In this document: positions 3,669-64,000 of the stretch, piece by piece | Position numbering within the stretch: the stretch's first letter is position 1 | Layout of the letters: every line of letters begins with the position of its first letter | NCBI GenBank assembly: GCA_003573975.1 | Contig: AP018533.1 | Span: forward strand, 2,914,319 to 2,978,318 | DNA from: Clostridiales bacterium CCNA10 | Lineage (GTDB): Bacteria > Bacillota > Clostridia > Oscillospirales > Oscillospiraceae | Length of the DNA: 64,000 nt | Reading direction: 5' to 3' | The notes under the pieces: generated by a model | The model's database searches: none | Seen by the model: the letters and a program-made list of their open reading frames with translations, nothing else | Told to the model about the DNA's origin: nothing | Translations under genes and position numbers: made by a program

Positions 3669-3703
3669 GCTGCTCCACCGTCCGGGGCCTCCCGCAGCCC
3701 TCT

Positions 3704-5287: not shown

Positions 5288-5345
5288 CCGGTTCCCGCCG
5301 GCTCCACGCTGCGCGCCTCACTCCAGAGTCACATGCACATTACGC

Positions 5346-5390: not shown

Positions 5391-5421
5391 CGGCACGGCT
5401 CCAAAAATTTACGAAAGGGGA

Positions 5422-5450
5422 TTGCATCCTGGTCCACTCTCGGTTATGAT
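5422..5450 (+). promoter_or_regulatory. sigma-A type promoter of the TetR gene
   Basis: TTGCAT (5422-5427), a 17-bp spacer, then TATGAT (5445-5450). It lies 57 bases upstream of the TetR start and just after the MATE terminator, so the regulator is transcribed separately. Confidence 0.7.
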
Positions 5451-5506
5451 ATAAATACTAATTTTTGATTTTATATTTTATTGGTCCCGGAAGGAGTGGA
5501 AGCGGC

Positions 5507-6148
5507 ATGGCGCGTAAAACCTATTCAGAGCATGAGCGGGAACAGGTGCGGGAAGCCCTTCTGACCACCGCGCTCCAATGTATCGTGGACCGGGGTCTGA
5601 TCCACAGCAGTATTGAGGTCCTGTGCAGAAAGGTCGGCATCTCCAAGAGCTTCTTCTACACCTTCTTTGCCTCGAAAGAAGAATTGGTGTTGGAGGCGCT
5701 TCGCTACCAGCAGCCCAAGCTGCTGCAATACGCCCGGCAGCTGATGGAGGATCCCGCACTCAGCTGGCAGGAAGGCGTCCGGACCTTTTTGGAGGCCTGC
5801 GCCTATGGTGAGAAAAAGGGCATCGCCGTACTGTCCATTGAGGAGGAACAGGAGATCTACCACTGTCTCTCTCAGGAAAGCTTTCAGACCTTCCGGGAGG
5901 ACCAGACCAAATTATTCCGTGAGCTGCTTATGGTCTTTGGACTTCCCGCGGGCAGCATAGAGCCCCGTCTGTTTGGCAATCTGGCATTGTCCATGATGAT
6001 GGTCTACAAGGCCATTCCAGACGCCATGCCCTTCCTGTTTCCAGAGGTGGCGAACGACATGGTGGAGTTTCAAATCACCGCCCTGCTGGGTGAGATGCTG
6101 CGGGTCAAGGAACAGACGGACAGGAGGAACGAGGATGTACCGTGCTAA
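5507..6148 (+). CDS. TetR/AcrR family transcriptional regulator
   Basis: A 213-aa protein. Residues 10-60 form the TetR DNA-binding domain, with the helix-turn-helix VLCRKVGISKSFFYTFFASK; the variable C-terminal part would bind an effector and dimerise. The start ATG at 5507 follows AAGGAG; an upstream in-frame ATG at 5465 lies inside the promoter region and is unlikely. The position next to a MATE pump suggests it represses that pump, but no operator palindrome was found. Confidence 0.9.
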   Translation: MARKTYSEHEREQVREALLTTALQCIVDRGLIHSSIEVLCRKVGISKSFFYTFFASKEELVLEALRYQQPKLLQYARQLMEDPALSWQEGVRTFLEACAYGEKKGIAVLSIEEEQEIYHCLSQESFQTFREDQTKLFRELLMVFGLPAGSIEPRLFGNLALSMMMVYKAIPDAMPFLFPEVANDMVEFQITALLGEMLRVKEQTDRRNEDVPC

Positions 6149-7777: not shown

Positions 7778-8073
7778 ATGAGTGAAGTAAGCGATTCAAA
7801 GGAGAGAAGTAAAACGGAACAGTATACTGCACCGCTGTTTTCTGGCGCGGTGGAGAAAAAATTGATCTGAATGGACGAAAACCGGATGCGGTACGGTACC
7901 TGTCTGTGACCGGAGAGCGGGATGAGTTGGATTGGGGCTATTTTCAATATTTTGAGATTGCAGCAGATAATCTCAAGCCCTTTATTGCAATGACCTTATT
8001 CACAGAGATTCTGTGCAAGCATTTTCCAGATGTAATGTCTGCGCCTGTCAAGCGACTGAGCAGCAAGCTTTGA
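7778..8073 (+). pseudogene. small gene broken by a frameshift at an A6 run
   Basis: ATG at 7778 opens a 30-codon frame (MSEVSDSKERSKTEQY...) that stops at 7870. At the run of six As (GAGAAAAAATTG, around 7855-7862) a shift of one base back joins it to a second frame that stays open to TGA at 8073 and reads like real protein (LNGRKPDAVRYLSVTGERDE, then WGYFQYFEIAADNL). Together they would make a soluble protein of about 97 aa. Either an indel in the homopolymer killed the gene, there is a sequencing error, or slippage is programmed; the heptamer is not a classical -1 site. I do not recognise the family. Confidence 0.55.
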
Positions 8074-8098
8074 GACACTAAAAAAAGGGGGTACTTTC

Positions 8099-44715: not shown

Positions 44716-45945
44716 TTACCCCACTCTCTCGAATGGTATCACCTTGCACCGGCTCTCCTCCGGCGGGTCGGGCGGCTCGGGTTCCGGCTTGGCTGTGGCC
44801 GTTTCCATGAAGCCGCCGATCTTCTCCGCCGCGCCCCTCTGCATCTCGTTGGTGATGTGCGTATAGGTATCCAGGGTAAACCCGGCGCTGAAGTGGCCCA
44901 GCATACTGGACAGGGTCTTCACATCCACGCCGCTGGAGAGGGCCATGGTGGCGAAGGTATGCCTGAGATCGTGGAAGCGCACATGCTCCTCGATACCGGC
45001 CATTGCCAGCAGCTTGCGATTGATCCTGGACACCGCATCTGGGCTCCAGTAGCCACCGGTGCGGGGCGATGGGAACAGGATGGGGTTGTCGGGGTGCTGT
45101 TCATGCTCCCGCACCAGGATGTCCACTGCCTGCTGGGACAGCGCCACTCTGCGGACAGAGTTCTTGGTTTTCGGCTCGGTTATCACCAGCTCCCCGTCGA
45201 TCCGGGTGACCTGCTTGCTCACCGAGAGGATGCGATCCTTCACGTTCAGGTCATCCCACAGCAGCGCCAGTAGCTCCCCGCGCCGCAGGCCGCTGGACAG
45301 CTCCAGGAAGAACATGGGCAGGACGCCGTACTTCTCTGCCTCGCGGAGATACGTCCCCAGCTTCTCTGGCGGGATGATGGTCATCTCCCGGTGCTCTTTG
45401 CGCGGGATGCGGCAGTTGTCGCAGGGGTTGTAGGGGATGATCCGCTCCTTGACCGCCTGCTTGAGCGCCGAGGAGAGCACCATGTGGATGCGGCGTACCG
45501 TACTGCCGGACAGGGCCGTGTTGGTCTGCGTTTCAAACCGCTGCACCCGCCCGCGGGCCTTGGAATCGTTGTACATCTGCTGGATCTGGATGGCGGTGAG
45601 CCGCTTGAGCTTGACCATCCCGATGGCCGGCACGATGTGGTTCTCGATGATATTCCTGTAGTTCTTGGCGGTGTTGGGGCGGATCACCGGCTTGCTGTAG
45701 GTCTCGAACCACAGCCTGCACCACTCCGCCACGGTGTAGTCCTCGTTGTGGTCCATCGGGATGCCCCGGTTGTCCCGGATGGCCCGGTCCAGCTTTTCCT
45801 TGCACTCGGCCCGCGTCTTGGCGGACACGCTTTTCTGGATGGCACGGCCGGTGGCGGGGTCGATCCCCAGGGTGTATCTGCCCTCCCAGCGGCCGTTGGG
45901 CTTTCTGCGAATGCTGCCCTCGCCGTTTGCTCGTTTCTTTGCCAT
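44716..45945 (-). CDS. tyrosine recombinase of IME 2
   Basis: A 409-aa integrase. N-terminal AP2-like part (GEGSIRRKPNGRWEGRYT), core-binding domain, and catalytic motifs SSGLRRGELLALLW, HDLRHTFATMAL, LGHFSAGFTLDTYTHI. A Pro/Glu-rich tail (AKPEPEPPDPPEESR) ends it. ATG 45945 follows AAAGGAGGG. It is more like the 402-aa recombinase of IME 1 than its tandem partner. It is the last gene of the minus-strand IME operon. Confidence 0.93.
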   Translation of the reverse strand: MAKKRANGEGSIRRKPNGRWEGRYTLGIDPATGRAIQKSVSAKTRAECKEKLDRAIRDNRGIPMDHNEDYTVAEWCRLWFETYSKPVIRPNTAKNYRNIIENHIVPAIGMVKLKRLTAIQIQQMYNDSKARGRVQRFETQTNTALSGSTVRRIHMVLSSALKQAVKERIIPYNPCDNCRIPRKEHREMTIIPPEKLGTYLREAEKYGVLPMFFLELSSGLRRGELLALLWDDLNVKDRILSVSKQVTRIDGELVITEPKTKNSVRRVALSQQAVDILVREHEQHPDNPILFPSPRTGGYWSPDAVSRINRKLLAMAGIEEHVRFHDLRHTFATMALSSGVDVKTLSSMLGHFSAGFTLDTYTHITNEMQRGAAEKIGGFMETATAKPEPEPPDPPEESRCKVIPFERVG

Positions 45946-46002
45946 TGGTTGTCCCTCCTTTCGGCAACACAAACAAATACCACAGAATCCCGGAAATAGC
46001 TA

Positions 46003-46221
46003 CTAAAATATTTCCGTCTTTTGAGCCGCCTGCTCCTCGATCCACGCCATGAACTTATCCCGGGGGACGATGATGCGGCTGCCCAGGGTGATGGTGGGGA
46101 AATCCTTCCGGTGCGCCACCTCGTAGGCGTGGGCCAGGCCGATACCCAACACATCGGCCACATCCTGCACGGTCAGCATCAGAGGGAGCTCGTTGAACGA
46201 GTTATACTTGGATCGTTTCAT
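46003..46221 (-). CDS. excisionase-type small HTH protein of IME 2
   Basis: A 72-aa protein with the Xis/MerR-like helix-turn-helix LTVQDVADVLGIGLAHAYEV and the wing FPTITLGSRIIVPRDKFMAW. ATG 46221 has GGAAAGGA upstream; the longer frame has no site. It resembles the excisionase at 30628 and lies 57 bases upstream of the recombinase it would serve. Confidence 0.87.
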   Translation of the reverse strand: MKRSKYNSFNELPLMLTVQDVADVLGIGLAHAYEVAHRKDFPTITLGSRIIVPRDKFMAWIEEQAAQKTEIF

Positions 46222-46290
46222 CAGATTCCTTTCCACCCTTCCCGCGGAAGGGATTTTATTCCTTGTTTTGCGGCCCATTTTCTGCGCCGC

Positions 46291-48231
46291 TCACATGGTC
46301 ATTTCGGGCTGCTGCTCCTCATGGTCATCCGGTTTGTGGCCCTGGGCAATCTTCTTTTCCCGCAGCTTTTTGAGCCGCTTGCGGTCGATCTGGATGCCGC
46401 CGGGGCGGGACTCGGGCAGGGAGTTGTCCTGGAACACCCGGCTCATGTGGTAGAGCAGCCGCGTTACCGCCAGCATCACATCGGGCGGACGCTGTTCCTC
46501 CCTGTGGTCCAGAAGGTACCGGGCGTATTCGTTCCCCTGCTCCGCCGACCGGGTCAGCCATTGAACGGCGCGCTCCTCATCCCGGGGCACTTCCTTTCCC
46601 ATGAGGTACAGCTTGCCCAGCAGGTACTGGGCATAGGGATTGCCTTGCTCGGCGGAACGGGTGAACCACTCCACGGCGCCCGCCGCGTCCTGTTTCGTGA
46701 TCTCGCCGCGGAGCAGCTCTTTGCCCAGGCGGTACATGGCCCACCTGTTTCCGCCTTCCGCAGCGGTGCGCAGCCAGTCCATGCCCCGCGCGGTGTCCCG
46801 CACCTCCAGATCGCCAGAAAGAAACAGCTTGGCGAGGGCGTACTGCGCCGCCGGATGCCCCTGCCGGGCGGCCTGCTCGAACCAATACCGAGCGTTCACC
46901 CCGTCGGGGATCAGCAGAGGGCCGTCCCGCCAGAGCTTGCCCAGCAGGTATTGCGAGTAGCGGTCGCCGCCCTTGGCCAGCTTCTCCAGCTCCGATACCG
47001 CGCCGCTCCGCTCCTCCATCGTCAGCTCTTCATTTCGGATGACCTCCTGCAGCGTCCAGTACGCATAGGGCGCATTTCGGAACTGCTCCGGCTCATCCCG
47101 CTGGCCCATGTCCTGGTCCTCGAAGGTAACTTGGCCCAGACGCAGCCGCTCCGCTTCCCGGATGACGGCGTTTTTGATCTGCCGGAACTCCTTTTCCTTG
47201 GAGAGCGGGAGCCGCTCCCGAGGCTTGTCGTGGTAGTAGCCATCCACCTTTCCCTGGAGCAGGAGCCGCTGGTCGTAGCACTGGCTCACCACAGGGAGCC
47301 GCTCCATCTGATCCACGATCTCGTCCACCAGCCCCTTGAGCCGTTTGGGAAGATAGCCGTAGGTTTTCTTGCCCTTGACCGTCCCCAGACCCGCCGCCAG
47401 CTCCTGCATGAGCCGCTCGGCCTCCGGGTGGTCGCACAGGCCGTCCCGCATCGCCTGCACCAGCTCCAGCATGGCCCGCCGCGCCTGCCGCACCAGCTCG
47501 TCCCGGGACTCCGACTTCTGCTCGTAGAGGTGGAGCATCTCATCCCGGAAGATGTCGTTGGTCAGCCTGGACTTGATCTGGCGGATGCCCTCTTTGGAGA
47601 GGTAGGCTTGTCCTGGCGTGGCCGACCAGGCCATCATGTGGATGTGCGGATGCTCGCCCTCGTCGTGGAAGGCCGCGTACCAGCGGAAGTCAGCAGGTGG
47701 TATTTTCATCGCCGCCGCGATCTCGTTGCGGTGGGCGCGGATGAGATTTCTCCACGCCGCGGCGTTGTTGAAGCCCAAACGCGCCGCGTCCTCCCGCTTG
47801 AGAGAGATGATGTGCGTCCACACATTTCCGGTGTACTGCTCCAGTTCTGCCATCGCTTTTTCAAGCGACACGCCGTCGTTGTCGCCGAACAGTCCGTGGG
47901 AACCGAGGCGCTCCGCCCGGGGCCGGGTGGCGATGTACTTCATATACTGCTCCGACTGGCGTAGCGCATCCCAGTTGGATTCCAGCGCCAGGGTGATGAA
48001 CGCAGAGGCCGCCGCCTTGGTGGGCTTGGTCTGGAAGCTCTCATACTCGTAGAGAGTTTTGGTGTCGGGGAAATCCTTCACCAGCTTTGCAATGAGCTTC
48101 TCCTGTTTGCGTGTGGGCGGACGGTCATCCGGAAGAATCTCCACCCGCTCCCGGGTTGCGATGTAGCGGAGGTACCCCGCCGCGCCGCCGGTGCTTTTGA
48201 TGTAGGGGCTTTTCAGGATCAGTCTTGCCAT
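46291..48231 (-). CDS. MobP-type relaxase with C-terminal Sel1 repeats, IME 2
   Basis: A 646-aa protein with the same layout as the relaxase at 27263: ARLILKSPYIKSTGG, a SHGLFGDNDG segment, KIPPADFRWYAAFHD and the metal-binding HPHIHMMAW. It has an insertion after residue 35 (a TRERVEILPDDRPPTRKQEK region of about 65 residues) not found in the other copy. About residues 440-590 hold Sel1-like repeats (YSQYLLGKLWRDG, AQYALAKLFLSGD, YAQYLLGKLYLMGKEVPRDE). It would nick the oriT at about 48.78 kb. Confidence 0.9.
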   Translation of the reverse strand: MARLILKSPYIKSTGGAAGYLRYIATRERVEILPDDRPPTRKQEKLIAKLVKDFPDTKTLYEYESFQTKPTKAAASAFITLALESNWDALRQSEQYMKYIATRPRAERLGSHGLFGDNDGVSLEKAMAELEQYTGNVWTHIISLKREDAARLGFNNAAAWRNLIRAHRNEIAAAMKIPPADFRWYAAFHDEGEHPHIHMMAWSATPGQAYLSKEGIRQIKSRLTNDIFRDEMLHLYEQKSESRDELVRQARRAMLELVQAMRDGLCDHPEAERLMQELAAGLGTVKGKKTYGYLPKRLKGLVDEIVDQMERLPVVSQCYDQRLLLQGKVDGYYHDKPRERLPLSKEKEFRQIKNAVIREAERLRLGQVTFEDQDMGQRDEPEQFRNAPYAYWTLQEVIRNEELTMEERSGAVSELEKLAKGGDRYSQYLLGKLWRDGPLLIPDGVNARYWFEQAARQGHPAAQYALAKLFLSGDLEVRDTARGMDWLRTAAEGGNRWAMYRLGKELLRGEITKQDAAGAVEWFTRSAEQGNPYAQYLLGKLYLMGKEVPRDEERAVQWLTRSAEQGNEYARYLLDHREEQRPPDVMLAVTRLLYHMSRVFQDNSLPESRPGGIQIDRKRLKKLREKKIAQGHKPDDHEEQQPEMTM

Positions 48232-52704: not shown

Positions 52705-52733
52705 TTTACATGACTTCCGCGATGCTTTATAAT
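52705..52733 (+). promoter_or_regulatory. promoter of the dnd operon
   Basis: TTTACA (52705-52710), 17-bp spacer, TATAAT (52728-52733). It gives a leader of about 70 bases before dndB. Confidence 0.75.
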
Positions 52734-52776
52734 GTGATATGTTATGACCGCTCCTCAGCAGGGCTTGCTGTGTACT

Positions 52777-52788
52777 ATAGTTAACTAT
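52777..52788. promoter_or_regulatory. 12-bp palindrome in the dnd leader
   Basis: ATAGTTAACTAT is a perfect palindrome between the promoter and dndB. A wider pair, CTATAG (52775-52780) with TATAG (52794-52798), overlaps it. It fits an operator, for example for DndB, which represses dnd genes in other bacteria. Confidence 0.5.
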
Positions 52789-52812
52789 TACGTTATAGAG
52801 AGGGTGCCATTC

Positions 52813-53847
52813 TTGAGTTCCGCTTCTTTTGTGTTTCCTGCCGTCAAGGGTATCCAAGCCAAGAGGGAATACTTTACCTCGATGGTTCCATTAGAGGTGA
52901 TCCCGAAAATCTTTCAGTTTGTTGACGAACAACTACCACCAGAAATTCGGGCACAGCGTATTCTCAACCGTGCCAGGATTCCAGAAATTCGAGATTACAT
53001 TTTAGAGAACCCCGATGACTATGTGTTTTCTTCGATAACAGTTTCCGTTGATGGTGTCATGGAGTTTATTCCATTAAATGAAGACGAGCCCCTTCTCGGT
53101 CACATTACAATTTCTATGAGTGCCAAGTTTCTCATAAATGACGGGCAGCATCGGCAAGCCGCTATTGCGGAAGCAATAAAAAAGAACCCCGAGCTAAAGA
53201 ATGAGCATATCTCCGTTGTTTTCTATCGCGATGAAGGTCTCGCTCATTCCCAGCAAATGTTTTCGGATCTTAACCGCTATGCAATTCGTCCTACAAAATC
53301 AATCAACATTCTTTTTAACTCGCGGGAAGAGTCTTCCATTGTTGCAAAGCGGGTTATTAATACGGTTAATGTCTTTCAGGATGTGACCGAAAAAGAACAT
53401 ACCTCCATATCCAACCGATCTAAAGCACTGTTTACATTAAGTGCAATCTGTAGCGGCACGGAAGCCTTATTAAAAGATCTGGACTTAGGTTTGGAGGAGA
53501 AATGCAACTTAGCAATTCATTTTTGGGAACAAGTATCTCAGTACATTCCTTTTTGGAAAGCAGTAAAGAACGGTCAGGCCAAGTCCTCTGATGTGCGAAA
53601 AAATACAATTTGTACCTTAAGTATCACCCTTAATGCCATCGGGGCTGGAGGTAATCAAATTATTCAAAGATATCCAGATACATGGGAAAGGCATCTTTGC
53701 CATTTGGCGCATATTGATTGGAGCAAAACCAACCCAGTGTGGGAAAATCTCGTCTTTATTCACGGAAAAGTTGCTACAAATCGTGCTTCGCAAAGAGCCA
53801 TGGCTACATATATAGAGAATATTATGACAGAAGAAATTGGTGGATAA
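52813..53847 (+). CDS. dndB: DNA phosphorothioation regulator DndB
   Basis: A 344-aa protein with FVFPAVKGIQAKREYFTSMV at the start and the DGQHR motif (INDGQHRQAAIAEA, about residue 105) that defines DndB/DGQHR proteins. DndB represses dnd transcription in Salmonella and is not needed for modification. I start at TTG 52813, where the family's N-terminus begins, with GAGAGGG upstream; the frame is open 23 codons earlier without support. Its stop is one base before dndC. Confidence 0.92.
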   Translation: MSSASFVFPAVKGIQAKREYFTSMVPLEVIPKIFQFVDEQLPPEIRAQRILNRARIPEIRDYILENPDDYVFSSITVSVDGVMEFIPLNEDEPLLGHITISMSAKFLINDGQHRQAAIAEAIKKNPELKNEHISVVFYRDEGLAHSQQMFSDLNRYAIRPTKSINILFNSREESSIVAKRVINTVNVFQDVTEKEHTSISNRSKALFTLSAICSGTEALLKDLDLGLEEKCNLAIHFWEQVSQYIPFWKAVKNGQAKSSDVRKNTICTLSITLNAIGAGGNQIIQRYPDTWERHLCHLAHIDWSKTNPVWENLVFIHGKVATNRASQRAMATYIENIMTEEIGG

Positions 53848-53848
53848 A

Positions 53849-55321
53849 ATGGCTAATTTAACAAAAGAAGATATTCGTATTGTACTTAACACGATACAGG
53901 AAGTGTATTTAGCAGATAAGATACCCTGGATTTGTGGATACAGTGGCGGCAAAGATTCCACTGCCGTCGTACAACTTGTTTGGATCGCACTTTCCCAGCT
54001 TCCAAAGGATAAATTACACAAACCCGTTCATGTTATTAGCACAGACACTCTGGTTGAATCCCCAGTTGTTGCACTATGGGCCACTCGCTCTATTGCGCGC
54101 ATGAAAGAGGCTGCAAATAACCCTGAACACAAATTACCTATTATTCCACATAGGCTTGTTCCAGAGGTCACCAACACCTTCTGGGTAAATCTCATAGGGC
54201 GGGGCTATCCATATCCTCGGCGTGATTTTCGCTGGTGTACTGACCGTATGAAAATCGACCCCTCAAATCGCTTTGTTAAAAAAATCCTGGATGCAGAGAG
54301 CGAAGCAATCCTGGTCCTTGGAACGCGCAAAGCCGAAAGTGCCACCCGCAAAGCCGTCATGGAGGGTTATGAGAAAAAGCGATACCGAGATCATCTTAGC
54401 CCCAATGGATCGTTTCCGAACTCCTATGTTTTTACTCCTATTGAAAACTGGAGCAACGACAACGTCTGGCAATATCTTGTACAATACCCCAACCCCTGGG
54501 GACATTCAAATAAGGACTTGTTGGCAATGTATAGTGGTGCTTCTGCGGATGGCGAGTGTCCGTTGGTGCTTGATACATCTACGCCCAGTTGCGGCAACAG
54601 TCGTTTCGGTTGTTGGGTATGTACTATGGTTTCCGAGGATAAATCCATGGCGGCCATGATCCAGAATGACGAAGAGAAAGCGTGGATGCTTCCCATGCTT
54701 GAATTCAGAAATGAAATTGCCGGTAATTGGGATATCGATAGAAAGCGTAGAGATTTTCGCCGTATGGATGGGCGTCTAACGTGGCATAACGAGCGACTGG
54801 TACACGGCCCATATACACAGGAAACCCGCAAGTACTTTTTAACTCGTCTATTAGAGGTTGAGAAGCTTGTTCATGAGATTGGACCAGAGGAAATTAAGGA
54901 TGTTCCCTTGATTACCATGGACGAACTTCGGTTTATTCGTCAAATTTGGTTAGATGAAAAACACGAGTTTGAAGATTTGTTGCCCGAAATCTACGAATCT
55001 GTTACCGGAAAACGCTATGAAGATGGATCTATTAGCAAAAACAAGTATTTTGGTCCAGCTGAAGCCAGAATTCTTCGCGAGGCTTGCCAAGCGGTATGTC
55101 CAGACGAGACTTTGATGTACGAAATGCAACGCTCCCTATTAGATGTCGAAGCTAAAGCAGCCGCCATCTCTAATAAGAGAAATGTAATTCAAAATTTTGA
55201 GCATGAGATAAAAAAAGCATTTTATCGTGATGAGCATGAGGCCGCCCTTATCGCAGAAGAACGTGCAAAAAAAATCACGGGAATGCAGGAATCTTTTGAC
55301 GATGGAAATTGGACTGAGTGA
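53849..55321 (+). CDS. dndC: DNA phosphorothioation protein DndC (PP-loop, iron-sulfur)
   Basis: A 490-aa PAPS-reductase-like ATP pyrophosphatase that activates DNA for sulfur insertion. The PP-loop YSGGKDST lies at residues 31-38. Four Cys for an iron-sulfur cluster are visible in FRWCTDRMK and TPSCGNSRFGCWVCTMV. The ATG at 53849 is preferred over a GTG four codons earlier. It starts one base after the dndB stop. Confidence 0.96.
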   Translation: MANLTKEDIRIVLNTIQEVYLADKIPWICGYSGGKDSTAVVQLVWIALSQLPKDKLHKPVHVISTDTLVESPVVALWATRSIARMKEAANNPEHKLPIIPHRLVPEVTNTFWVNLIGRGYPYPRRDFRWCTDRMKIDPSNRFVKKILDAESEAILVLGTRKAESATRKAVMEGYEKKRYRDHLSPNGSFPNSYVFTPIENWSNDNVWQYLVQYPNPWGHSNKDLLAMYSGASADGECPLVLDTSTPSCGNSRFGCWVCTMVSEDKSMAAMIQNDEEKAWMLPMLEFRNEIAGNWDIDRKRRDFRRMDGRLTWHNERLVHGPYTQETRKYFLTRLLEVEKLVHEIGPEEIKDVPLITMDELRFIRQIWLDEKHEFEDLLPEIYESVTGKRYEDGSISKNKYFGPAEARILREACQAVCPDETLMYEMQRSLLDVEAKAAAISNKRNVIQNFEHEIKKAFYRDEHEAALIAEERAKKITGMQESFDDGNWTE

Positions 55322-55333
55322 GGTGCTGAGAAT

Positions 55334-57316
55334 ATGTATTTTACAAAAATCGAATTGCATAACTTTGGCATCTACAAAGGCCATCACGAAATGTGTCTTT
55401 CGGACCAAATCGGTAATCGCAATGTTACTCTCATCGGTGGATTGAATGGTCGAGGAAAAACGACCTTTCTTGATGCTATTTTGCTTGCATTGTATGGAAA
55501 GCAGGCATTAAAGTATGTTCAGGAAAACGCGCGTTCCTATGAACGGCTACTCATAGAGCATATTAATAAGCACGCGACAGATGATCTTACTTATGTCGCT
55601 GTATCGCTTGGTTTGGATGACGGAACCGCTTTGCGCGTCTGCCGGAAGTGGAAGTTAAAGGGCAAGAAGGTCGATGAAACTATTGTCGTCGAGAAAAACG
55701 GAACAATAGATAAGTACCTTGGGGAAAGTTGGAGTTACTATATTGAAGAGATTCTGCCTTTTGGAATAGCAAGATTTTTCTTCTTTGATAACGAAAAGAT
55801 CGCTCAACTGGCTGACGACGCTTCATTTGAGCAAATTAAAACTTCTATTAAATCCGCAATTGGTGTTTCTACGATTGAAAAAGCAATTACTCATATTGAT
55901 GAAGTAATTCGCCGAAAAAAAGATGCTCTGCAAGCTTTTGAAAAAAGCGAAGTCAACCAAGGTTACCAAGAGGTAGAAGCGCAACTCAAGGAACTCAACT
56001 CCAAAATCGAAACAGCTCGTCGAGAGGCTGACATCTTAAAAGCAAATTGCGAGAGTATTGCAATTGCTATAGAAACTAAAGAAAAAAAGTTTTGGGCTTC
56101 TGGTGGTGACTTAACACTCAGCCGAGAGGCCATAAAACAAGAAAAAGAGAAAATCAAGGCATATGTGCAAGAAGTTCGTGACGAAATTATGCTGCGCGTA
56201 TCTGATCCTGCAACTCCGCTCTTTATGTGCCGCAAATTAGTTACACAAGCTTATGATGCAGAGATTGATGAGCAGAAAAAAGCAGCTCTGAAGCTTTCTG
56301 ACCCAATTGTCGAAAGTATTCAGAAAAATATTTTGGATCGATTTAATCAGGGGAATTTCGATGACAGAACGCTCAGAATCATTACTGATATTGTCAAGCA
56401 AGAGATCGGGAAATTCACTTCAACAGGCGAGGGTGCGGAACACATTAATATGTCCCACACGACCATGCTCCTCTTTGACAAATTAATTGTCACAATATTC
56501 CATTCCCTTGATCAAAAAATCGAAACCTTAATCAGTCATGTCGATGCGCAAGAAAATGAGCTCATGAGCTTGGACGCACACCTTGGTGAGTCAGACGAAA
56601 AGACGATGGCCATGAAACTCTATGAGACGCTCAAAGAATATGAGCGCAAAAAAGCTTTGGCTGACGACCAATACCAGAAGCAGCAGAGCTTAATCGAGAG
56701 TTTGGAGCGCCAGAAAGAAGCTCTTCATTCTAAGCGCTTGCAGTTAATCAAGACTATCGCAGAAAAAGAGAATACGAATGATGATAACTCCCGTATTATC
56801 AAATATTCTGTGATGTCTATCGAAGTTCTTAATGAATTTAAAGTTCGTTTACAGCGTGAAAAGATAGACAAGCTTTCTGCAACTGCCACAGAATGCTTCC
56901 AGACTCTGGTTGAAAAAGATTCCCTTGTGAGTAAAATCCATATTGATACGGACAGTTTAGATGTAACCATACTTGATCCAGATGGGCATGAGTTGTTAAA
57001 GAACCAGCTCTCCGCGGGAGAGCAGCAGATGTTTGCTATTTCCATTGTGTGGGCACTGGCCAGAACCTCTGGCTATAAGGCCCCTGTGGTCATTGATACA
57101 CCCATGGCTCGCTTAGATTCTTCCCACCGGGCAAATTTCGTTACCAGCTATCTACCGTCTGCAAGCTCCCAGGTTATGGTTCTTTCCACAGATGAAGAAA
57201 TTTATGGTAGATATCTTGATATGATTCGAGAAAATGTTATAAATTACTTTACTCTACATTATCGGGAAGGTGAGCAATGCACCTCTATCATCAACGGCTA
57301 TTTTGAGGGGGTGTGA
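55334..57316 (+). CDS. dndD: DNA phosphorothioation ATPase DndD (SMC/Rad50-like)
   Basis: A 660-aa ABC-type ATPase. Walker A GGLNGRGKTT is at residues 35-44. Coiled coils fill roughly 190-260 and 410-500. The C-terminal half-site has the signature NQLSAGEQQMFAI and Walker B PVVIDTPMARLDS. DndD is thought to nick or open DNA and hydrolyse ATP in the DndCDE complex. AGGTGCTGAG precedes the ATG, 12 bases after the dndC stop. Confidence 0.95.
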   Translation: MYFTKIELHNFGIYKGHHEMCLSDQIGNRNVTLIGGLNGRGKTTFLDAILLALYGKQALKYVQENARSYERLLIEHINKHATDDLTYVAVSLGLDDGTALRVCRKWKLKGKKVDETIVVEKNGTIDKYLGESWSYYIEEILPFGIARFFFFDNEKIAQLADDASFEQIKTSIKSAIGVSTIEKAITHIDEVIRRKKDALQAFEKSEVNQGYQEVEAQLKELNSKIETARREADILKANCESIAIAIETKEKKFWASGGDLTLSREAIKQEKEKIKAYVQEVRDEIMLRVSDPATPLFMCRKLVTQAYDAEIDEQKKAALKLSDPIVESIQKNILDRFNQGNFDDRTLRIITDIVKQEIGKFTSTGEGAEHINMSHTTMLLFDKLIVTIFHSLDQKIETLISHVDAQENELMSLDAHLGESDEKTMAMKLYETLKEYERKKALADDQYQKQQSLIESLERQKEALHSKRLQLIKTIAEKENTNDDNSRIIKYSVMSIEVLNEFKVRLQREKIDKLSATATECFQTLVEKDSLVSKIHIDTDSLDVTILDPDGHELLKNQLSAGEQQMFAISIVWALARTSGYKAPVVIDTPMARLDSSHRANFVTSYLPSASSQVMVLSTDEEIYGRYLDMIRENVINYFTLHYREGEQCTSIINGYFEGV

Positions 57317-57320
57317 TAGT

Positions 57321-57710
57321 ATGATTATTAAGCATTTTAAACTGTCACAGCCAGAGAAGGAGCGACTCATTCGAATCAAAGCAAAGACCGGTGTTCAAAA
57401 CTGGAATATTCTTTGCCGGTGGGCATTATGTTGGTCGCTTTCAGAACCTACCATTCCTGGTAGTATTGATCCACAGTCTGACAGCAATGTTGAAATGGAT
57501 TGGACCACTTTTGCCGGTGAATATGCAGAAATCTTTGAAGCAATTATTCGCCAGCGATGTTTGAATGATGGCTTAGGAGATGACCCTAACACTTTAATCC
57601 GGTACTTCCGACTTCATCTTTATCGTGGCATTAACCATTACAGCACCAGAGATGTTTTGAAAAGCTGCTCAGATTTACTCGAATCTGCTCTTCCGAAGGA
57701 GGAAGCATAA
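57321..57710 (+). CDS. dndE: DNA phosphorothioation protein DndE
   Basis: A 129-aa protein that fits DndE, a small tetrameric DNA-binding protein with affinity for nicked DNA. The start MIIKHFKLSQPEKERLIRIK and the GVQNWNILCRWAL segment are typical. GAGGGGG precedes the ATG at 57321. It begins four bases after the dndD stop, and its stop overlaps the dndA start (TAATG). Confidence 0.92.
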   Translation: MIIKHFKLSQPEKERLIRIKAKTGVQNWNILCRWALCWSLSEPTIPGSIDPQSDSNVEMDWTTFAGEYAEIFEAIIRQRCLNDGLGDDPNTLIRYFRLHLYRGINHYSTRDVLKSCSDLLESALPKEEA

Positions 57711-58843
57711 TGGCTGTTTATCTTGACTACAACGCTTCTGCTCCGATAGATGAAAGAGTTCTGGAGAGAATGATTGAAGTGTATCGCTCTCATTATGGCA
57801 ACGCAGATAGTAGAACTCACATCTTTGGTACAGATGCCAAAGAAATTGTTTCCTCCGCAAGAAAATCCATTGCTGAGATCTTGGCTGTGGACAGTACGGA
57901 TGTTTTCTTTACCAGCGGTTCCACCGAGAGTAATAACATGGCGATTCTCGGGTTGCTTGACTACGCGCTTGAGAGTGGCCGTAATCACTTCATTACTACG
58001 TCTATCGAGCATAAGTCCGTTTTGGAAGCCATGAAACACCTGCAAGAGAAAGGCTGTGTTGTGGATTTTGTTTCACCCGATGCGTCTGGCCGAGTCAAAC
58101 CGGAGCAGATTCTCAGCCTCGTCACGGACAAAACTCTGCTTGTTTCTATGATGCAGGTCAACAGCGAAACTGGCGTGATACAGCCTATTGAAGAGGTCGG
58201 TGCAGCATTAGCAGGGACTAAGACATATTTTCACGTTGATGCCACACAAGGTTTTGGTAAGCTGAATGATAGCTTACGAAATACCAAATACAATATGCTT
58301 AGTATCACCGCCCATAAGATCAGCGGTCCCCAGGGGATTGGCGCATTTATTATGCGGCGCGACCGTACATATAGACGGCCTCCCGTCAAACCGCTCATGT
58401 ATGGCGGTCAGCAGGAACGCGGATACCGTCCGGGAACTACACCGGTGGCTTTGGTTGCAGGCTTCGCTCTCGCAGCTCAGCTAAGCGACAAGGAATCCGC
58501 TGTCCACATGGAAAGCTGTAGAGCGATTAAGCGAAGATTCCTGGAGGCTGTGGAAGGTCTGAACTATACTTTGAATGGAGACCAAGAACACTGCCTGTCG
58601 TCCACTGTAAACATTAGTTTCCACGGTGTTGATGCAGAGGGTATCTTCCTTGCTGTAAAGGAGGATTATGCGTTCTCCAATGGTTCGGCCTGTAACTCTG
58701 GCAGCCATGCCCCAAGTTATGTATTAACAGCTATGGGACTGGGTGAAACACGAGTGAATGAGGCTATCCGTCTTTCTTGGAACCATGATACAAAAGTTGA
58801 CTTTTCGGTTCTTGTAAACTACATTAAATCAATGACCGATTAA
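57710..58843 (+). CDS. dndA: cysteine desulfurase DndA
   Basis: A 377-aa PLP enzyme that mobilises sulfur from cysteine for DNA phosphorothioation. The PLP-binding Lys is in SITAHKISGPQG (Lys203), and the catalytic Cys328 lies in GSACNSGSHAPSYVL. In many bacteria dndA is first, divergent, or replaced by iscS; here it is last in a B-C-D-E-A order like that of archaeal dndCDEA loci. A shared terminator follows. Confidence 0.94.
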   Translation: MAVYLDYNASAPIDERVLERMIEVYRSHYGNADSRTHIFGTDAKEIVSSARKSIAEILAVDSTDVFFTSGSTESNNMAILGLLDYALESGRNHFITTSIEHKSVLEAMKHLQEKGCVVDFVSPDASGRVKPEQILSLVTDKTLLVSMMQVNSETGVIQPIEEVGAALAGTKTYFHVDATQGFGKLNDSLRNTKYNMLSITAHKISGPQGIGAFIMRRDRTYRRPPVKPLMYGGQQERGYRPGTTPVALVAGFALAAQLSDKESAVHMESCRAIKRRFLEAVEGLNYTLNGDQEHCLSSTVNISFHGVDAEGIFLAVKEDYAFSNGSACNSGSHAPSYVLTAMGLGETRVNEAIRLSWNHDTKVDFSVLVNYIKSMTD

Positions 58844-58890
58844 ACAACAAGGTCCCAGCGCCAAGTATGGCATTGGGACCTTGTTGTTTA
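58843..58890. terminator. bidirectional terminator between the dnd and partner operons
   Basis: AACAACAAGGTCCCA pairs with TGGGACCTTGTTGTT around a 16-base loop; A-rich and T-rich ends allow it to serve both convergent operons. Confidence 0.85.
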
Positions 58891-59235
58891 TTACTTTAAG
58901 TGATAGCGCCTGATGAACTCTTCCAAAATCAACTCAAAGACATCAGAGTTTGTGTGTAGCATCTTGTATACCTTTTACAATGACGAGCTTGCGGAAGACA
59001 ATCCTTGTTGTCCATTTGTTGCTGTATAGACCACATTTTGAAACATCATCTTCATACCATTTAAATTACGAAATTTTTCGTCATGCTTAATTCCAAGCTT
59101 TTGAGCGCGAAGTGTAAGACTTTTTGATAAGTCCATTAGCTCTTTTTCAATTTGATCGGTAGTTTTACCATCACTTTTACGGTATACATCAATTAAAGCC
59201 ACTAATTCCTCGACATCCCAAGCTACTTTAATCAT
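58891..59235 (-). pseudogene. ~114-aa gene with an in-frame stop at codon 87
   Basis: From ATG 59235 the protein reads MIKVAWDVEELVALIDVYRK and continues to GLSSASSSL, then TAA (58975-58977). The same frame goes on directly as KVYKMLHTNSDVFELI and runs to the next TAA at 58891, forming a natural-looking end. The motif FRNLNGMKMMFQNV followed by GLSS resembles a module seen at the N-terminus of HNH-type restriction proteins (low confidence). Either a nonsense mutation shortened it, or the stop is read through. Last gene of the partner operon. Confidence 0.6.
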
Positions 59236-59247
59236 TATCTATCTCCC

Positions 59248-59913
59248 TTAGAATCTGATTTTTAACTTTTGGTTAAGGTTCTTTTCCTTGAGCCATGTCA
59301 TGACATTGGGGGTCAAATCCAAAACCGTAGCCCGCTGAGAAGAGACTTTCTTTAAGAAGTCTTCGATTTCGGGGTTCAAAGAGAATTGATCGGTAATTTG
59401 CTTTGCTTCCGCCACGTAGGAAACCAGGCTGTTTACTGCTTTGATGGATGGATTTCCAGCAACCGTTTGAGTGATGCTGTCTGTCAAGTCCTTTGCCCGT
59501 TTGGGGTCATTTGATAGACCACCAATCATAGACAAATAGCCTTTTGGACCATCAGAATATTTCTGAGCAGCATCACGCCATACGATTTTAATTTGTGCTG
59601 CAACAGCATCTCCCTTGGATTTCAGAAGCCTAACAGTTTCCAAGGTCAACCGCATTTCAGAAACTCCGTTGCCGCAATCGTCGATGCAAGCCAGCAATTC
59701 GTTGCGAGTAGGTTCATCCACAAGTGAAGTGCTGACAATTCCTTTTTCTTTCATGGCAGCAGCACAATCAATGGTATCTTTAATACTCTCGGTGGCCTGG
59801 GCAAGCTGTGCCAACGCCTTTGCGTAAGTTTCGGCATGCTGCTTGCTTTCGATTGTTACTCGGCGTTTTTTGATAGCAGAGGTGCAATTTTTGATTGTCT
59901 CAGTTAACAGCAT
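59248..59913 (-). CDS. uncharacterised 221-aa protein of the dnd partner operon
   Basis: A soluble, almost fully helical protein (MLLTETIKNCTSAIKKRRVT...), likely coiled-coil in part (residues 20-60). It has no signal or membrane segment. The ATG at 59913 lies inside the end of the ATPase gene (14-base overlap), which couples the two. I do not recognise it. The C-terminal LDLTPNVMTWLKEKNLNQKL resembles short docking tails seen in BREX/Dpd-type accessory proteins only in a general way. Confidence 0.7.
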   Translation of the reverse strand: MLLTETIKNCTSAIKKRRVTIESKQHAETYAKALAQLAQATESIKDTIDCAAAMKEKGIVSTSLVDEPTRNELLACIDDCGNGVSEMRLTLETVRLLKSKGDAVAAQIKIVWRDAAQKYSDGPKGYLSMIGGLSNDPKRAKDLTDSITQTVAGNPSIKAVNSLVSYVAEAKQITDQFSLNPEIEDFLKKVSSQRATVLDLTPNVMTWLKEKNLNQKLKIRF

Positions 59914-62900
59914 TTTCGTACACCTCCATATTCTCAAGCTGAGCGTAAAGTGCCTCCATAGAGGACAAGGCAGCTTCAGACAATGCTTCTGCACCAGCAA
60001 AACCGCCAGTAGCAGCTATGTCTTTTTGGGCCTTCGCCCCTTCCTGGTCAGCCTTTTGAGCAATCGCCTGAATATCTCTAAGGAAATCATACAGCACATG
60101 TAGCGAGTTGCCGGAGTATGCCGTCAGCTGCTTTACTGCTTGTACAGAGGCCGCATCGTTAATTAGCTTGACATGTCCCATTACCGTTTTGGCTGTCTCA
60201 ATGGGAGGTTTTTCATACTTGACCCGCAACTCTGTACTTCCGATGATTCCATTCGCAGAAAACACAGAAAACAGCTCTTGAATAGCAGACAGCGTATCAA
60301 TGAGATTCTTCTGGTTGAGTTCACCAATATACTCTTCGAGTTTGCCTACCACCTTTGCAGCTTCCTGAGTATCCGCAACCATGGCTTTTTTAACGCTGGG
60401 ATAGAGCGCTTTCAACAGCGTGGCAGGATTATAGAGAAGATGCTTCTGTGGGATACTACCAGGTAATGTTGCTTCAATATCCCAGTCGGCAGCCATAAGT
60501 TTTTCAACAGCGAGCACCAGCTCGTCTGTTCTGTAACAGGATTTCGTGTTGGGATCAACTGCAAAATGGACCGCACCCATTGTGGTTGCAGAAGCTTGCT
60601 TTAAGAAGGTCAATGCACTATCAAAGTCAGCTTTGCGATTAAGAATGAACTGAATCATGTCATTCCACTCACGGGTATCTCTCCTGATGCTATCGTCTTT
60701 TTTGAAATCCTTAAACAGAGATTTGATTACTGAATAGGGCGAACTCGTATCAACCTTCTGGCCCAAGATACACGCTTTGAGATACTGAATCGCAAGGCAC
60801 CACTCCAATACCGGGAGAGAATCTTCTCCCTGCTTAGTAGCGGCAACTTTTTCGATGATTTCAGCTTTTCTGCGTTCCAACCAAGTAATCAATCTCTGCT
60901 GGTAATAAGCTGCGCCCTCGAAATCCCAACCTTTTGCGTAGTTCAGTTCATTTAAGGCCATCAGAACATCGCGGCTTTCAGAACTTCTGTCCATGTAAAC
61001 AATGGCTCTATCCGTATTTGTGGGAGAACTCTGATCGTTAATGTAGTAGCAGCTCAGGTCGGAAAGACGCTCTGCTGCAATATAGGCTGGGATACCAATA
61101 TCCTGCCAGTTGATTGCACCACATTGCCTGGAGTCTCCTCGAATAAGAGTACGAAGCCAGCCACGATAGTCGGGATCATATTTCAATGTTTCACCCTTGG
61201 TAAACCATGCCGTGATATCATCCTTAAACTTACGATAATTCTTTGTGGCACCATCGACAGGGGGCTTGGCCTTGAGAGGTTCTGGAGTAGTAGGATGATG
61301 AACAGAATTGCTTCCACTGGTTGTCACTGGTTTGGATGTGACAGTTGGGGATACAGCTTTGCCAGTGGATTTATCCACGATTTCACCGATGCCAGTAAAG
61401 GTATTCAGCCCCACATCTGCAAGGAAAGCTTGATTAAGGCCACCAAAACGCAGCGTTCCGTCGATGTCTTTCACGCCGGATGCAGAACCATCACCCCAAA
61501 TGGCAAACACCGCTTTCAGTCGATTCTTATCATCTGAACTCATGCTTTCCAAACGGTCAATGGAAGAACTATGGGGATCATTGGACATCTGAGCATTGCT
61601 GGGGTTAAGCGGGAAATACCAACCATCCCCATACTGCTTGCCATCAAAGTATTCTTTTAACTGGGCGCGAATAACATTCTTTAAGAACATTCTCGGGCTT
61701 TTTGTCGCAAGAGATTCATACAGAGTCAACAGTGCATGGCGGTTAAAGGGATATAGCGTTACTTTCTTTTCTCCGATGGTTGTGGTATCCCATTCACAAG
61801 GAGGCGTGAAATCACTGATTGGCAGTTCACTCAAATCTGCACCGGAGTCAGTCCAATGATGGAGTTGTGTGGGGTCACAGTAAATTGCGTTCAAATACCG
61901 GCCAGCCATCTGAATGATAAACTCGTCAGTTCCATAGGAACGTTCTGTGACCTCAATTTGGTGTGTTACACGGTCTTTGAAATTGCCTCGAAACGCATAA
62001 TAATAGTCGTTGGTGATGCCGATTACCGAAGTAACACGACACAGATCTGCGTAATCGCCGCCATGCTCATAAGAAAGCGCCGTAATGAGTTCCTGGTCAA
62101 TTCCAGTGAAGCCGGTGAAGTCTTCGATAAAGATTGTTAGGTTTTTGCCTTGCTTTTTCAAATCTCGTCTCAGCTGAGCAAAAATCGTTTCCGCATTTTC
62201 ACTGGAAATGTCTGCACAACGCTGAATGACCTCTCTCGTAAACCTGTTAAGATAGTTGATGAGTTTGGTAATCTCAAAGTCATCGCCTTTCAAAGAGGCC
62301 GCAAAGAGGGACGCTTGGGGATCGCCCTGTTTCATTACAGCTCGGATGATTTTAGATACATTAAAATCTTCTTCTGTAAAAATTGTGGTGTCTTGAAGAA
62401 TCTGATTGCTCGGAGCCGTGATGACATTATAGCATCTGGATATTGCGCCACCTTCACGCAATAGATGTTCGCTTACACGGCTGTCGGCAAGGTAGCTGGC
62501 AATGTCACGGCACTTGACCGCTTTGTAGGTTTCTCCGGACATATCGTTTCGCACAGCTGCAATATAGGCATACAGAATCTCTGTCTTGAAAGAATCTTCA
62601 TCTTTGGAATCGGAAGAGGCCACAAACTTACGGAGCTTCTCCGCAACATCAGGGTCTTTAATGGCTCCCTGTTCCAACAACTGAGAAAAAGCGCCACGGA
62701 CAGAGTTATTCAAACGACGCAGGAAAACCAACTGCTCCGTTGCAGGATTATATATAGTAGAGGGGCTTCTTTCAAACTTGCCTTTTAGATAGCGAATAAG
62801 ATGAGATTTACCAGTGCCGTGATTGCCTCGGACAATGACCATACGATGCTCATTGTCAGGGTTGTAGATCAGCTGCTCGAAAACCTCATCTTCGCTCATC

Positions 62901-63067
62901 AACTTTGTAGGGGCAGGCATTTTCCCCTCTTCATAATAGCCACCACGGAAAAGCTCAAGAGACGAGAACGGCATGTGAGTAGACATGAAATAGGCATCTT
63001 CGGTGGCCATATCATCTGTTTTAATCGCATACTTTTCCATTACAGAACGATACTGTTCCCATTTCAT
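59900..63067 (-). CDS. 1,055-aa P-loop ATPase of the dnd partner operon
   Basis: An AAA/STAND-like ATPase. Walker A RGNHGTGKSHLIRYL is at about residues 80-94, and a Walker B-like NLTIFIEDFTGFTG is near 314. Sensor-like LCRVTSVIGITNDYY follows. Residues 580-640 form a low-complexity linker; the C-terminal 400 residues are helical. No nuclease motif was found. It overlaps the genes on both sides. It is longer than DptF (about 550 aa) and lacks the HerA-type helicase features of DptH. DpdH of 7-deazaguanine DNA systems is a possible comparison by size and neighbours. Confidence 0.8.
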   Translation of the reverse strand: MKWEQYRSVMEKYAIKTDDMATEDAYFMSTHMPFSSLELFRGGYYEEGKMPAPTKLMSEDEVFEQLIYNPDNEHRMVIVRGNHGTGKSHLIRYLKGKFERSPSTIYNPATEQLVFLRRLNNSVRGAFSQLLEQGAIKDPDVAEKLRKFVASSDSKDEDSFKTEILYAYIAAVRNDMSGETYKAVKCRDIASYLADSRVSEHLLREGGAISRCYNVITAPSNQILQDTTIFTEEDFNVSKIIRAVMKQGDPQASLFAASLKGDDFEITKLINYLNRFTREVIQRCADISSENAETIFAQLRRDLKKQGKNLTIFIEDFTGFTGIDQELITALSYEHGGDYADLCRVTSVIGITNDYYYAFRGNFKDRVTHQIEVTERSYGTDEFIIQMAGRYLNAIYCDPTQLHHWTDSGADLSELPISDFTPPCEWDTTTIGEKKVTLYPFNRHALLTLYESLATKSPRMFLKNVIRAQLKEYFDGKQYGDGWYFPLNPSNAQMSNDPHSSSIDRLESMSSDDKNRLKAVFAIWGDGSASGVKDIDGTLRFGGLNQAFLADVGLNTFTGIGEIVDKSTGKAVSPTVTSKPVTTSGSNSVHHPTTPEPLKAKPPVDGATKNYRKFKDDITAWFTKGETLKYDPDYRGWLRTLIRGDSRQCGAINWQDIGIPAYIAAERLSDLSCYYINDQSSPTNTDRAIVYMDRSSESRDVLMALNELNYAKGWDFEGAAYYQQRLITWLERRKAEIIEKVAATKQGEDSLPVLEWCLAIQYLKACILGQKVDTSSPYSVIKSLFKDFKKDDSIRRDTREWNDMIQFILNRKADFDSALTFLKQASATTMGAVHFAVDPNTKSCYRTDELVLAVEKLMAADWDIEATLPGSIPQKHLLYNPATLLKALYPSVKKAMVADTQEAAKVVGKLEEYIGELNQKNLIDTLSAIQELFSVFSANGIIGSTELRVKYEKPPIETAKTVMGHVKLINDAASVQAVKQLTAYSGNSLHVLYDFLRDIQAIAQKADQEGAKAQKDIAATGGFAGAEALSEAALSSMEALYAQLENMEVYENAVN

Positions 63068-63864
63068 GAATCCATCGCCTCCTTCACCGAAATGTGTGTG
63101 AAACCATTGATAGGATCACCGTCTACATAGTAAAGCATGATCGGAGTGGAGTCAGACCATGTTTCAAGTTTAATGAGACCAATTTCATGCAGTGTGCGAA
63201 GGCCGGCAGAAAGCGCCAAGGGAAGATTACTGCCAATCTCAACTTCGGGGATTTTTGTGCTCAGCCAAAGTATGAAGTCCTGGGCAAGAACAGTCTCATT
63301 ATATTTGAATTTTTCTGTATATGTAGTTGCCAATATATCTTCTAACCGTAGCTTCATATTGGGGATTATCATTGTTCCGCTCAAATAGCCCAGCCCTAAA
63401 AAAGCAGCCCAAAAGCGCCATCCCAGGACAGCGTTTTCATTCAGTGCAGCCAGCTCTTTCACTTCGGAAGCGCAGGTCTTAGCCATACCTTCCCAAGATT
63501 TCAGCGCAAAGATTCGCTCATTTTGAGCAATCAGCCATTTGGTGAACATGTGAAATGTGGTGTCTTTTGCAGAGAAGACCCGAGCACTCACATACCGCCG
63601 AAAAGCCTTGGATGAAGCGATTATACTGGGATCAACAGCTAAGACCAGATTGTCAGCATCAGCTTTGATGAGGGCAAGTTCTTCGAGGGCCACATTGATT
63701 GACTTGTTGATTTGATCGAGTTCTTTTTCATCATTGATACCCAATGTCATGCACTGACGCACTTCATCACGGCTCATGCTTTTATGGGAAACCAAGCGGC
63801 AAACAGAGAGAACTCGCTCCGGTGTCGGCTCCATTCGCATGCCGTCTGGATTGACTTTGAACAT
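63064..63864 (-). CDS. uncharacterised 266-aa protein of the dnd partner operon
   Basis: A soluble protein with winged-helix-like stretches at both ends (VLSVCRLVSHKSMSRDEVRQ, and LSAGLRTLHEIGLIKLETWS). AAAGGAGG precedes the ATG; its stop overlaps the ATPase start by four bases (ATGA). A ~270-aa protein directly before a ~1,050-aa ATPase is the layout of DpdG-DpdH, which I recall only in outline. It is likely a DNA-binding or adaptor subunit of the ATPase. Confidence 0.7.
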   Translation of the reverse strand: MFKVNPDGMRMEPTPERVLSVCRLVSHKSMSRDEVRQCMTLGINDEKELDQINKSINVALEELALIKADADNLVLAVDPSIIASSKAFRRYVSARVFSAKDTTFHMFTKWLIAQNERIFALKSWEGMAKTCASEVKELAALNENAVLGWRFWAAFLGLGYLSGTMIIPNMKLRLEDILATTYTEKFKYNETVLAQDFILWLSTKIPEVEIGSNLPLALSAGLRTLHEIGLIKLETWSDSTPIMLYYVDGDPINGFTHISVKEAMDS

Positions 63865-63877
63865 ACGAATACCTCCT

Positions 63878-64000
63878 TTAGAATTTTTGAATCGGAATAG
63901 GATAACCGTCGCTATACTCTCTTATCGTTTTACCACCATTGGCAACGATGGTGTTCTCGTTACAGTAGAGTATCTTACGATAGCCAAAGGCATCCAGTTT
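63878..64000 (-). CDS. 3' end of a further gene of the dnd partner operon
   Basis: The last 40 codons of a frame entering from the right window edge: KLDAFGYRKILYCNENTIVA, then about 20 more residues ending YPIPIQKF and a TAA at 63878. Its stop lies 14 bases before the next start, so it belongs to the same operon. Too short to identify. Confidence 0.75.
   Translation of the reverse strand, partial: KLDAFGYRKILYCNENTIVANGGKTIREYSDGYPIPIQKF

Follow-up and report, generated by a model that had tools for sequence, protein, structure and literature searches.

A phosphorothioation (dndBCDEA) operon beside a divergent Dpd-type restriction operon in Clostridiales bacterium CCNA10

Which restriction genes, if any, act with a phosphorothioation operon whose neighbors are not DptFGH (DndFGH)? 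This question is raised by one end of a 64,000-nucleotide stretch of Clostridiales bacterium CCNA10 DNA (assembly GCA_003573975.1, contig AP018533.1, positions 2,914,319 to 2,978,318; hereafter the window), where a dndBCDEA operon on the plus strand meets a convergent operon on the minus strand. DndA, DndC, DndD and DndE put sulfur into the DNA backbone at specific sites, giving phosphorothioate (PT) marks, and DndB is a regulator. The original prediction, made from the letters of the window, had proposed that the facing operon is a partner other than DptFGH and may be a new PT-dependent effector set. Protein families were called with PADLOC models, Pfam and the curated cut-offs of NCBIfam, and by profile-profile comparison against the proteins of six named plasmids, and relatives were sought in plasmid, phage, viral and genome collections. 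DNA past the window was read for about 20 kb from the host contig (3.56 Mb; L002/L003, G000:C1:2966300-2998000, G000 being the window's own genome), and window and flank together make 83.7 kb.

The two operons

By its sequence similarities the partner operon is the restriction half of a 7-deazaguanine (Dpd) system, with homologs of DpdE, DpdF, DpdG, DpdH and DpdI in their canonical order. In the direction of transcription we found a NERD-UvrD helicase, an AddB-like protein with a PIN domain, DpdE, DpdF, DpdG, DpdH, DpdI and a broken small open reading frame (ORF). Four of the seven main genes begin past the window edge, where at least one further gene had been predicted. Since neighboring genes overlap or lie 3-62 nucleotides apart, the operon is probably a single transcription unit. 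The main genes are as follows (window numbering; aa, amino acids).

73928-77200 (beyond the window), minus strand: NERD-UvrD helicase, 1090 aa; NERD and UvrD (Pfam)
69677-73924 (beyond the window), minus strand: AddB-like and PIN protein, 1415 aa; C-terminal PIN_4 (Pfam)
66387-69614 (beyond the window), minus strand: dpdE-like, SNF2/RapA-type helicase, 1075 aa; NF041062 E 3.8e-108
63878..64000 (3' end, continuing to 66394), minus strand: dpdF-like, RecQ-type helicase, 838 aa; NF041063 E 5.5e-154
63064..63864, minus strand: dpdG-like, 266 aa; NF041064 E 7.8e-5, 22 bits, cut-off 80
59900..63067, minus strand: dpdH-like P-loop ATPase, 1055 aa; NF041065 E 3.6e-76, 257 bits, residues 14-1013, cut-off 450
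59248..59913, minus strand: dpdI-like, 221 aa; NF041066 E 1.3e-5, 25 bits, cut-off 150 (scanned as a 250-aa frame)

The DpdH, DpdF and DpdE family matches were strong, and DpdG and DpdI were recognized through profile comparison and synteny. The 1055-aa protein also matched the PADLOC DpdH model (2.7e-40), was 27% identical to the Paenibacillus DpdH over 965 positions and has its Walker A motif (GNHGTGKS) at residue 81. Profile-profile comparison linked the 266-aa protein to DpdG (E 7.5e-14 over 233 columns) and the 221-aa protein to DpdI (E 1.7e-8, 46 C-terminal columns only), whose gene sits directly after dpdH, the canonical place. Homology is clear for DpdE, DpdF, DpdG and DpdH, and for DpdI it consists of those 46 columns and the place of the gene. 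The gene order E-F-G-H-I matches that of the Enterobacter, Nostoc, Agrobacterium and Paenibacillus islands; the Caulobacter, Skermanella and Methylobacterium islands have F-G-H-I with no DpdE annotated alongside. None of the five proteins reached its NCBIfam cut-off (DpdE 363 bits against 500, DpdF 515 against 550, the other three as listed), so the module is, as judged from these scores, a divergent branch.

The original prediction had described a P-loop ATPase with Walker A near residue 80, 266-aa and 221-aa proteins and an interrupted frame of about 114 aa, and we located all of these on the minus strand at those sizes. It had also likened the 266/1055-aa pair to DpdG/DpdH by layout; NCBIfam, PADLOC and profile-profile comparison bear this out as homology and make the 221-aa protein a DpdI homolog. 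It had proposed structure prediction besides, and here an AlphaFold model of DpdG, built from three near-identical sequences, was too poor (mean predicted local distance difference test score, pLDDT, 38.6) and was set aside. PDB sequence searches, with DpdH and with the alignment of DpdG, gave nothing at E <= 0.1.

Compared with the restriction operon of the Dpd islands (dpdD-K), that of the window holds the NERD-UvrD and AddB-PIN pair within it. The NERD domain keeps D...ExK (FDV...VELK) and PIN_4 keeps its acidic residues, under the motif definitions that we assume for both. The N-terminal half of the 1415-aa protein had no Pfam match. This protein has cysteines in CPYRF and CIYC...C, a motif that we take to be AddB-type, and hhalign, run with it as a single sequence, weakly aligned it to a Paenibacillus protein of 947 aa (probability 82.9, E 9.2e-6, 507 columns), which itself has a PD-(D/E)XK match below threshold and no other. 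From the cysteine motifs and the weak profile match we describe it as AddB-like. Since the Paenibacillus 7-deazaguanine island also holds a UvrD gene (hhalign 99.7) and an AddB-like gene, our data suggest that restriction modules of this branch include the AddAB-like pair.

The modification operon, predicted to be complete, proved to be so. It runs from 52744 to 58843 on the plus strand, with neighboring genes overlapping or 12 nucleotides apart.

52744..53847, plus strand: dndB, DGQHR protein, 367 aa; PF14072 E 3.5e-119; TIGR03233 395.9 bits, cut-off 328
53837..55321, plus strand: dndC sulfurtransferase, 494 aa; TIGR03183 614 bits, cut-off 290; SGGKDS PP-loop intact
55334..57316, plus strand: dndD ABC ATPase, 660 aa; TIGR03185 444 bits, cut-off 246; no CxC/CxxC motif
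57270..57710, plus strand: dndE, 146 aa from GTG, a later start being possible; PF08870 E 7.8e-37; TIGR03184 110 bits, cut-off 72
57710..58843, plus strand: dndA cysteine desulfurase, 377 aa; TIGR03235 410.7 bits, its best NCBIfam match, cut-off 480

DndB, DndC, DndD and DndE exceed their NCBIfam cut-offs and DndA is below its own. The DGQHR motif of DndB, the SGGKDS motif of DndC and the P-loop of DndD are all present. For DndD the PADLOC PbeC model PDLC02731 (770 bits) outscored the best DndD model (507). We set PbeC aside as an identity, the protein being without CxC/CxxC and passing TIGR03185. Since a DndD lacking CxC scores higher with the PbeC model, PADLOC may mislabel such dnd loci as Pbe.

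As predicted, the partner is not DptFGH. DptH was found in none of four genomes (G000 and its relatives G830, G831 and G833, introduced below) and in neither of two other dnd genomes (G648 and G508), and the control genome G576 gave 769 bits. The sole DndF match among the window proteins lay in the 1055-aa protein and spanned 42 residues around its P-loop. TIGR04095, a helicase model for a PT "restriction enzyme", matched the two helicases weakly (7.4e-5 and 3.8e-4). A partner resembling PbeABCD, which the prediction had raised, did not hold up: PbeA was the best match of no protein at the locus, with a weak match (2e-11) to the DpdF-like helicase, and the ATPase with CxC is missing. Nor is the B-C-D-E-A order an archaeal hallmark, as it also occurs in G648, a genome of the same class.

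Dpd modules with and without dnd

Close DpdH relatives were sought in a genome collection of 84,980 species, and four loci besides the window's genome have one (genomes G830-G833). Anaeromassilibacillus sp. An200 has every gene of both operons in the same arrangement, contiguous, at 98.8-100% protein identity. In P. gallinarum identities are 92.6-99% for the Dpd operon and 93-99% for dnd; one contig stops with the Dpd operon and another opens with dndA, and we infer that the two are adjacent across the contig ends. A Lachnospiraceae metagenome-assembled genome (MAG) has a single contig that starts inside dpdH and runs through the 3' part of dpdH, dpdI, Mrr, GmrSD and dndA to dndB. Because its DpdI is 96% identical to that of the window (DndA 95%) and its DndB and DndD only 66-67%, the linkage appears to have outlasted a swapping of dnd alleles. 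In all, dndC is also present in three of the four relative genomes.

The enzyme for the 7-deazaguanine mark was not found alongside. DpdA had no match in any of the five genomes, and the same query was positive in seven of eight named Dpd records, the miss being Nostoc p057_I. A separate query, one without a control, also gave no match in these five. We considered 7-deazaguanine genes elsewhere in the genome as a source of the mark and rejected this as no DpdA was found; que genes were not part of that search. Full-length DpdJ was absent from G000, G830, G831 and G833 and present in both control plasmids; in G000 the query gave a match of about 48 positions inside DpdF and nothing more. DpdK and DpdD had no match in the 83.7 kb of window and flank, the only stretch searched for them.

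Elsewhere, the module was mostly found with 7-deazaguanine genes. Eleven named records with DpdH were analyzed (ten plasmids and one phage-labelled scaffold), eight of them whole and three over about 37.6 kb each. A DpdA-like match was present in 9 of the 11, which suggests that the Dpd module normally travels with a modification. Among the three partly read records, Shinella has DpdA, Deinococcus a split DpdA-like match and Agrobacterium vitis queC without DpdA. DndC was in none of the eight whole records, and the sequence read from the 11 gave no Dnd protein match at E <= 1e-8. The original prediction had held that frequent occurrence of the partner genes without dnd would count against it. 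Such occurrence is formally what we see; since the relatives have dpdA instead, we read it as a module swap.

Across 398 genomes of the phylum the DpdH family had three matches, of which G000 (257 bits) was the only substantial one; those in G109 and G401 (17-19 bits, short stretches) were dropped. A search with the single DpdH protein among 60 relatives, G000 included, again found G000 only. We discarded a search with the DpdF family as uninformative: RecQ and other helicases match it, and of 391 class genomes 380 gave a match (G000 514 bits, next best 236). Some DndC family match was found in 23 of the 391 class genomes and exceeded the cut-off in four, which have differing company: Dpd in G000, DptH on the same contig in G576, genes read as PbeA and a CxC ATPase in G648, and Mrr in G508. 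DndC matched 2302 plasmid records, and none of the 60 inspected was a DpdH record. Among viral contigs the single DpdH protein had no relative and the DpdH alignment one (L107), with DpdE, F, H, J, K, D and B-like genes within 21 kb and neither a dnd nor a DpdA match in that stretch.

Four of the Dpd records showed features of their own. Nostoc sp. C057 plasmid p057_I (L016) has the set dpdE-F-G-H-J-K-D; its record matched neither DpdA nor DndC, and it is either an orphan restriction module or one marked by chromosomal genes. Deinococcus taeanensis p_TS293_6 encodes a 656-aa DUF6884 protein near dpdE-H (L104:7911-9881), with DpdA-like matches at 7932-8486 and 9012-9536, perhaps a DpdA-DUF6884 fusion. 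The faecal scaffold MT835580.1 ("Bacteriophage sp.", L018) has dpdA- and dpdB-like genes and a dpdF-G-H/J-like set near the Caulobacter type. On Paenibacillus sp. 37 pART37 (L012/L073) the 7-deazaguanine island has two dpdJ and two tRNA-guanine transglycosylase (TGT)-like genes.

A possible exchange of self-marks

We know of no account of how Dpd restriction proteins discriminate self from non-self. We consider it probable that the locus is a chimeric PT restriction-modification system, with a Dpd-type complex for which the mark of self is phosphorothioation in place of 7-deazaguanine, and we infer functional coupling of the two operons. DndA, DndC, DndD and DndE, with DndB regulating, would place PT marks on host DNA. 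The DpdH ATPase with DpdG and DpdI would form a recognition and assembly core. DpdE and DpdF, SNF2/RapA-like and RecQ-like by profile, would serve as DNA motors, and cutting would fall to the AddAB-like pair, in which NERD is fused to a UvrD/AddA-type helicase and PIN to the AddB-like protein. DNA without PT would be engaged, unwound and degraded, and PT-marked host DNA spared. To the extent that the DpdA search can tell, this genome does not make the 7-deazaguanine mark, so PT would be the self-signal in its place. Candidate PT readers are DpdI, the least conserved subunit, whose N-terminal part was unaligned by profile, and the divergent DpdG. A more general idea is possible and we hold it tentatively: the Dpd complex may be a machine for unmarked DNA with an exchangeable self-signal, here a base (7-deazaguanine) changed for backbone sulfur, re-targeted through a small, fast-changing reader (the N-terminal part of DpdI and/or DpdG) while the ATPase, the motors and the gene order stay constant.

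The gap between dpdI and dndA is a variable slot (L005:13829-14662; L008:2725-3558 and 3685-5517). In the window it holds two features.

58842..58889, no strand: terminator-like hairpin between the convergent operons, with 16-bp perfect arms, exactly complementary
58891..59235, minus strand: 114-aa small ORF, interrupted after codon 86 (86-aa piece 58975-59235); frame intact in An200

The RNA folded from 58851-58915 has -25.4 kcal/mol, and the hairpin presumably serves as a bidirectional terminator. The 86-aa piece had no match in plasmids. For the unbroken An200 copy all Pfam matches were sub-threshold, and its AlphaFold model (single sequence, mean pLDDT 49.9) was too poor and set aside. In P. 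gallinarum and the Lachnospiraceae MAG the slot holds a HARE-HTH and Mrr_cat endonuclease after dpdI, and in the MAG a GmrSD_N/GmrSD_C protein as well.

Several points weigh against coupling of the two operons. They are convergent, with the hairpin between, and not co-transcribed. Dnd modification genes are often decoupled from the classical DndFGH restriction genes (PMC10853773, where 806 of 3416 taxa with nucleases by dnd genes have DndFGH), so dnd need have no restriction partner here. All five Dpd proteins fall short of their NCBIfam cut-offs. The relatives are few, four loci that probably represent one mobile lineage, and recurrence is therefore not independent evidence; one of them, the MAG G832, has only a 3.5-kb dpdH-I fragment, and DndC was not found in it. 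Lastly, Mrr, or Mrr with GmrSD, between the operons of two relatives could be the true PT-dependent partner. The orientation and the common decoupling of dnd would both be expected if two independent systems shared a defence island, with dndBCDEA working by itself or together with accessory nucleases and a Dpd-like operon that is self-contained and mark-free. Nostoc p057_I also fits this: it has dpdE-K and dpdD, and a search confined to the plasmid detected neither DpdA nor DndC. We nevertheless consider independence rather unlikely, given that DpdA-like matches accompany most named DpdH records, that dnd are the only DNA-modification genes recognized beside this Dpd operon, and that the linkage was kept in a relative with divergent dnd alleles.

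That the small gene of the slot is the PT-dependent partner, with the Dpd-like operon a backup effector, draws on the Mrr and GmrSD genes of the two relatives. A 49% identical Mrr near dnd in G508, on a 12-kb contig with no Dpd matches, also fits, as do the restriction endonuclease genes fused to HARE-HTH beside dnd reported by Rakesh et al. (PMC10853773). However, Mrr and GmrSD relatives were absent from the 83.7 kb and from the An200 stretches, although both controls matched, and the slot there holds the 114-aa ORF, unrelated to Mrr and broken in the window, which makes this reading distinctly improbable. The broken ORF might instead point to a decaying, non-functional locus. We regard this as very improbable, as the 12 other genes of both operons are open and have kept the P-loop, DExH and PP-loop motifs. 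Moreover, comparison with P. gallinarum gave ratios of nonsynonymous to synonymous substitution rates (dN/dS) of 0.063-0.101 across dpdE-I and 0.035-0.064 across the five dnd genes; comparison with the MAG gave 0.114 for dndA and no computable value for dndC, whose dS is saturated. Finally, the scores under the NCBIfam cut-offs might suggest an unrelated new effector family that is Dpd-like by layout alone. We give this almost no credence, since it is already contradicted by the extents and E-values of the DpdH, DpdF, DpdE and DpdG matches, which fall in the same order as in Dpd islands.

Setting and relation to known systems

Upstream of the dnd island the window encodes an integrase, together with a MobL relaxase that carries fused Sel1 repeats (44716-48231), in line with an integrative mobilizable element. 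Tyrosine-recombinase-like genes (Phage_integrase, Pfam) lie at 78310-80006, past the NERD-UvrD end. Such a pair (L003:6628-8324 and L083:8129-10247) is found at this end in both G000 and An200, and in P. gallinarum on the rhodanese/dndB side instead, as if the island had been circularly permuted or rearranged.

The window locus shares the order and homologs of DpdE through DpdI with the Dpd islands. The nearest full island that we found, on Paenibacillus sp. 37 pART37 (E 33, F 32, G 25 and H 27% identity by BLAST; DpdI 18% by global alignment), has queC, queE, a 6-carboxytetrahydropterin synthase and dpdA. In contrast, the window locus has dndBCDEA, with no dpdA found in the genome and no full-length dpdJ. 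With DndABCDE-DptFGH it shares the modification genes, whereas its restriction operon is Dpd-type and its genome lacks DptH. The DndCDEA-PbeABCD type is represented by G648, where dnd in the B-C-D-E-A order stands beside the genes read as PbeA and a CxC ATPase, neither of which the window locus has. PMC12839542 offers two precedents. In Type 4 bacteriophage exclusion (BREX), PT replaces the usual methylation of the defence machine, around a core of PglZ, BrxL and BrxC where the window has Dpd. In a HerA/FtsK BREX-related capture system with TGT, the Dpd modification part enters another system, whereas here Dpd restriction parts join Dnd modification.

A description of dnd paired with Dpd restriction genes was not found in the open-licence PubMed Central literature that we searched, and a word search of PMC10853773 gave no match for dpd. 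A 2025 review (PMC12707154) states that restriction activity associated with 7-amido-7-deazaguanine (ADG) was not further explored. The protein families are known and the combination of dnd with Dpd restriction genes appears new. Of the predicted new PT-dependent effector set, the novelty of the families falls away, as they are Dpd, and what stands as new is their partnership with PT genes and the AddAB-like pair.

This locus of a gut bacterium brings together two of the best known DNA marks other than methylation, and it suggests that a defence machine can be coupled anew to a different self-mark. With such a natural mark swap, the components in which PT-paired and 7-deazaguanine-paired modules differ would become candidate readers, and the constant ones the mark-independent machine. 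Many dnd loci have no DndFGH, and for some of these the Dpd-type operon is a candidate for the missing restriction partner.

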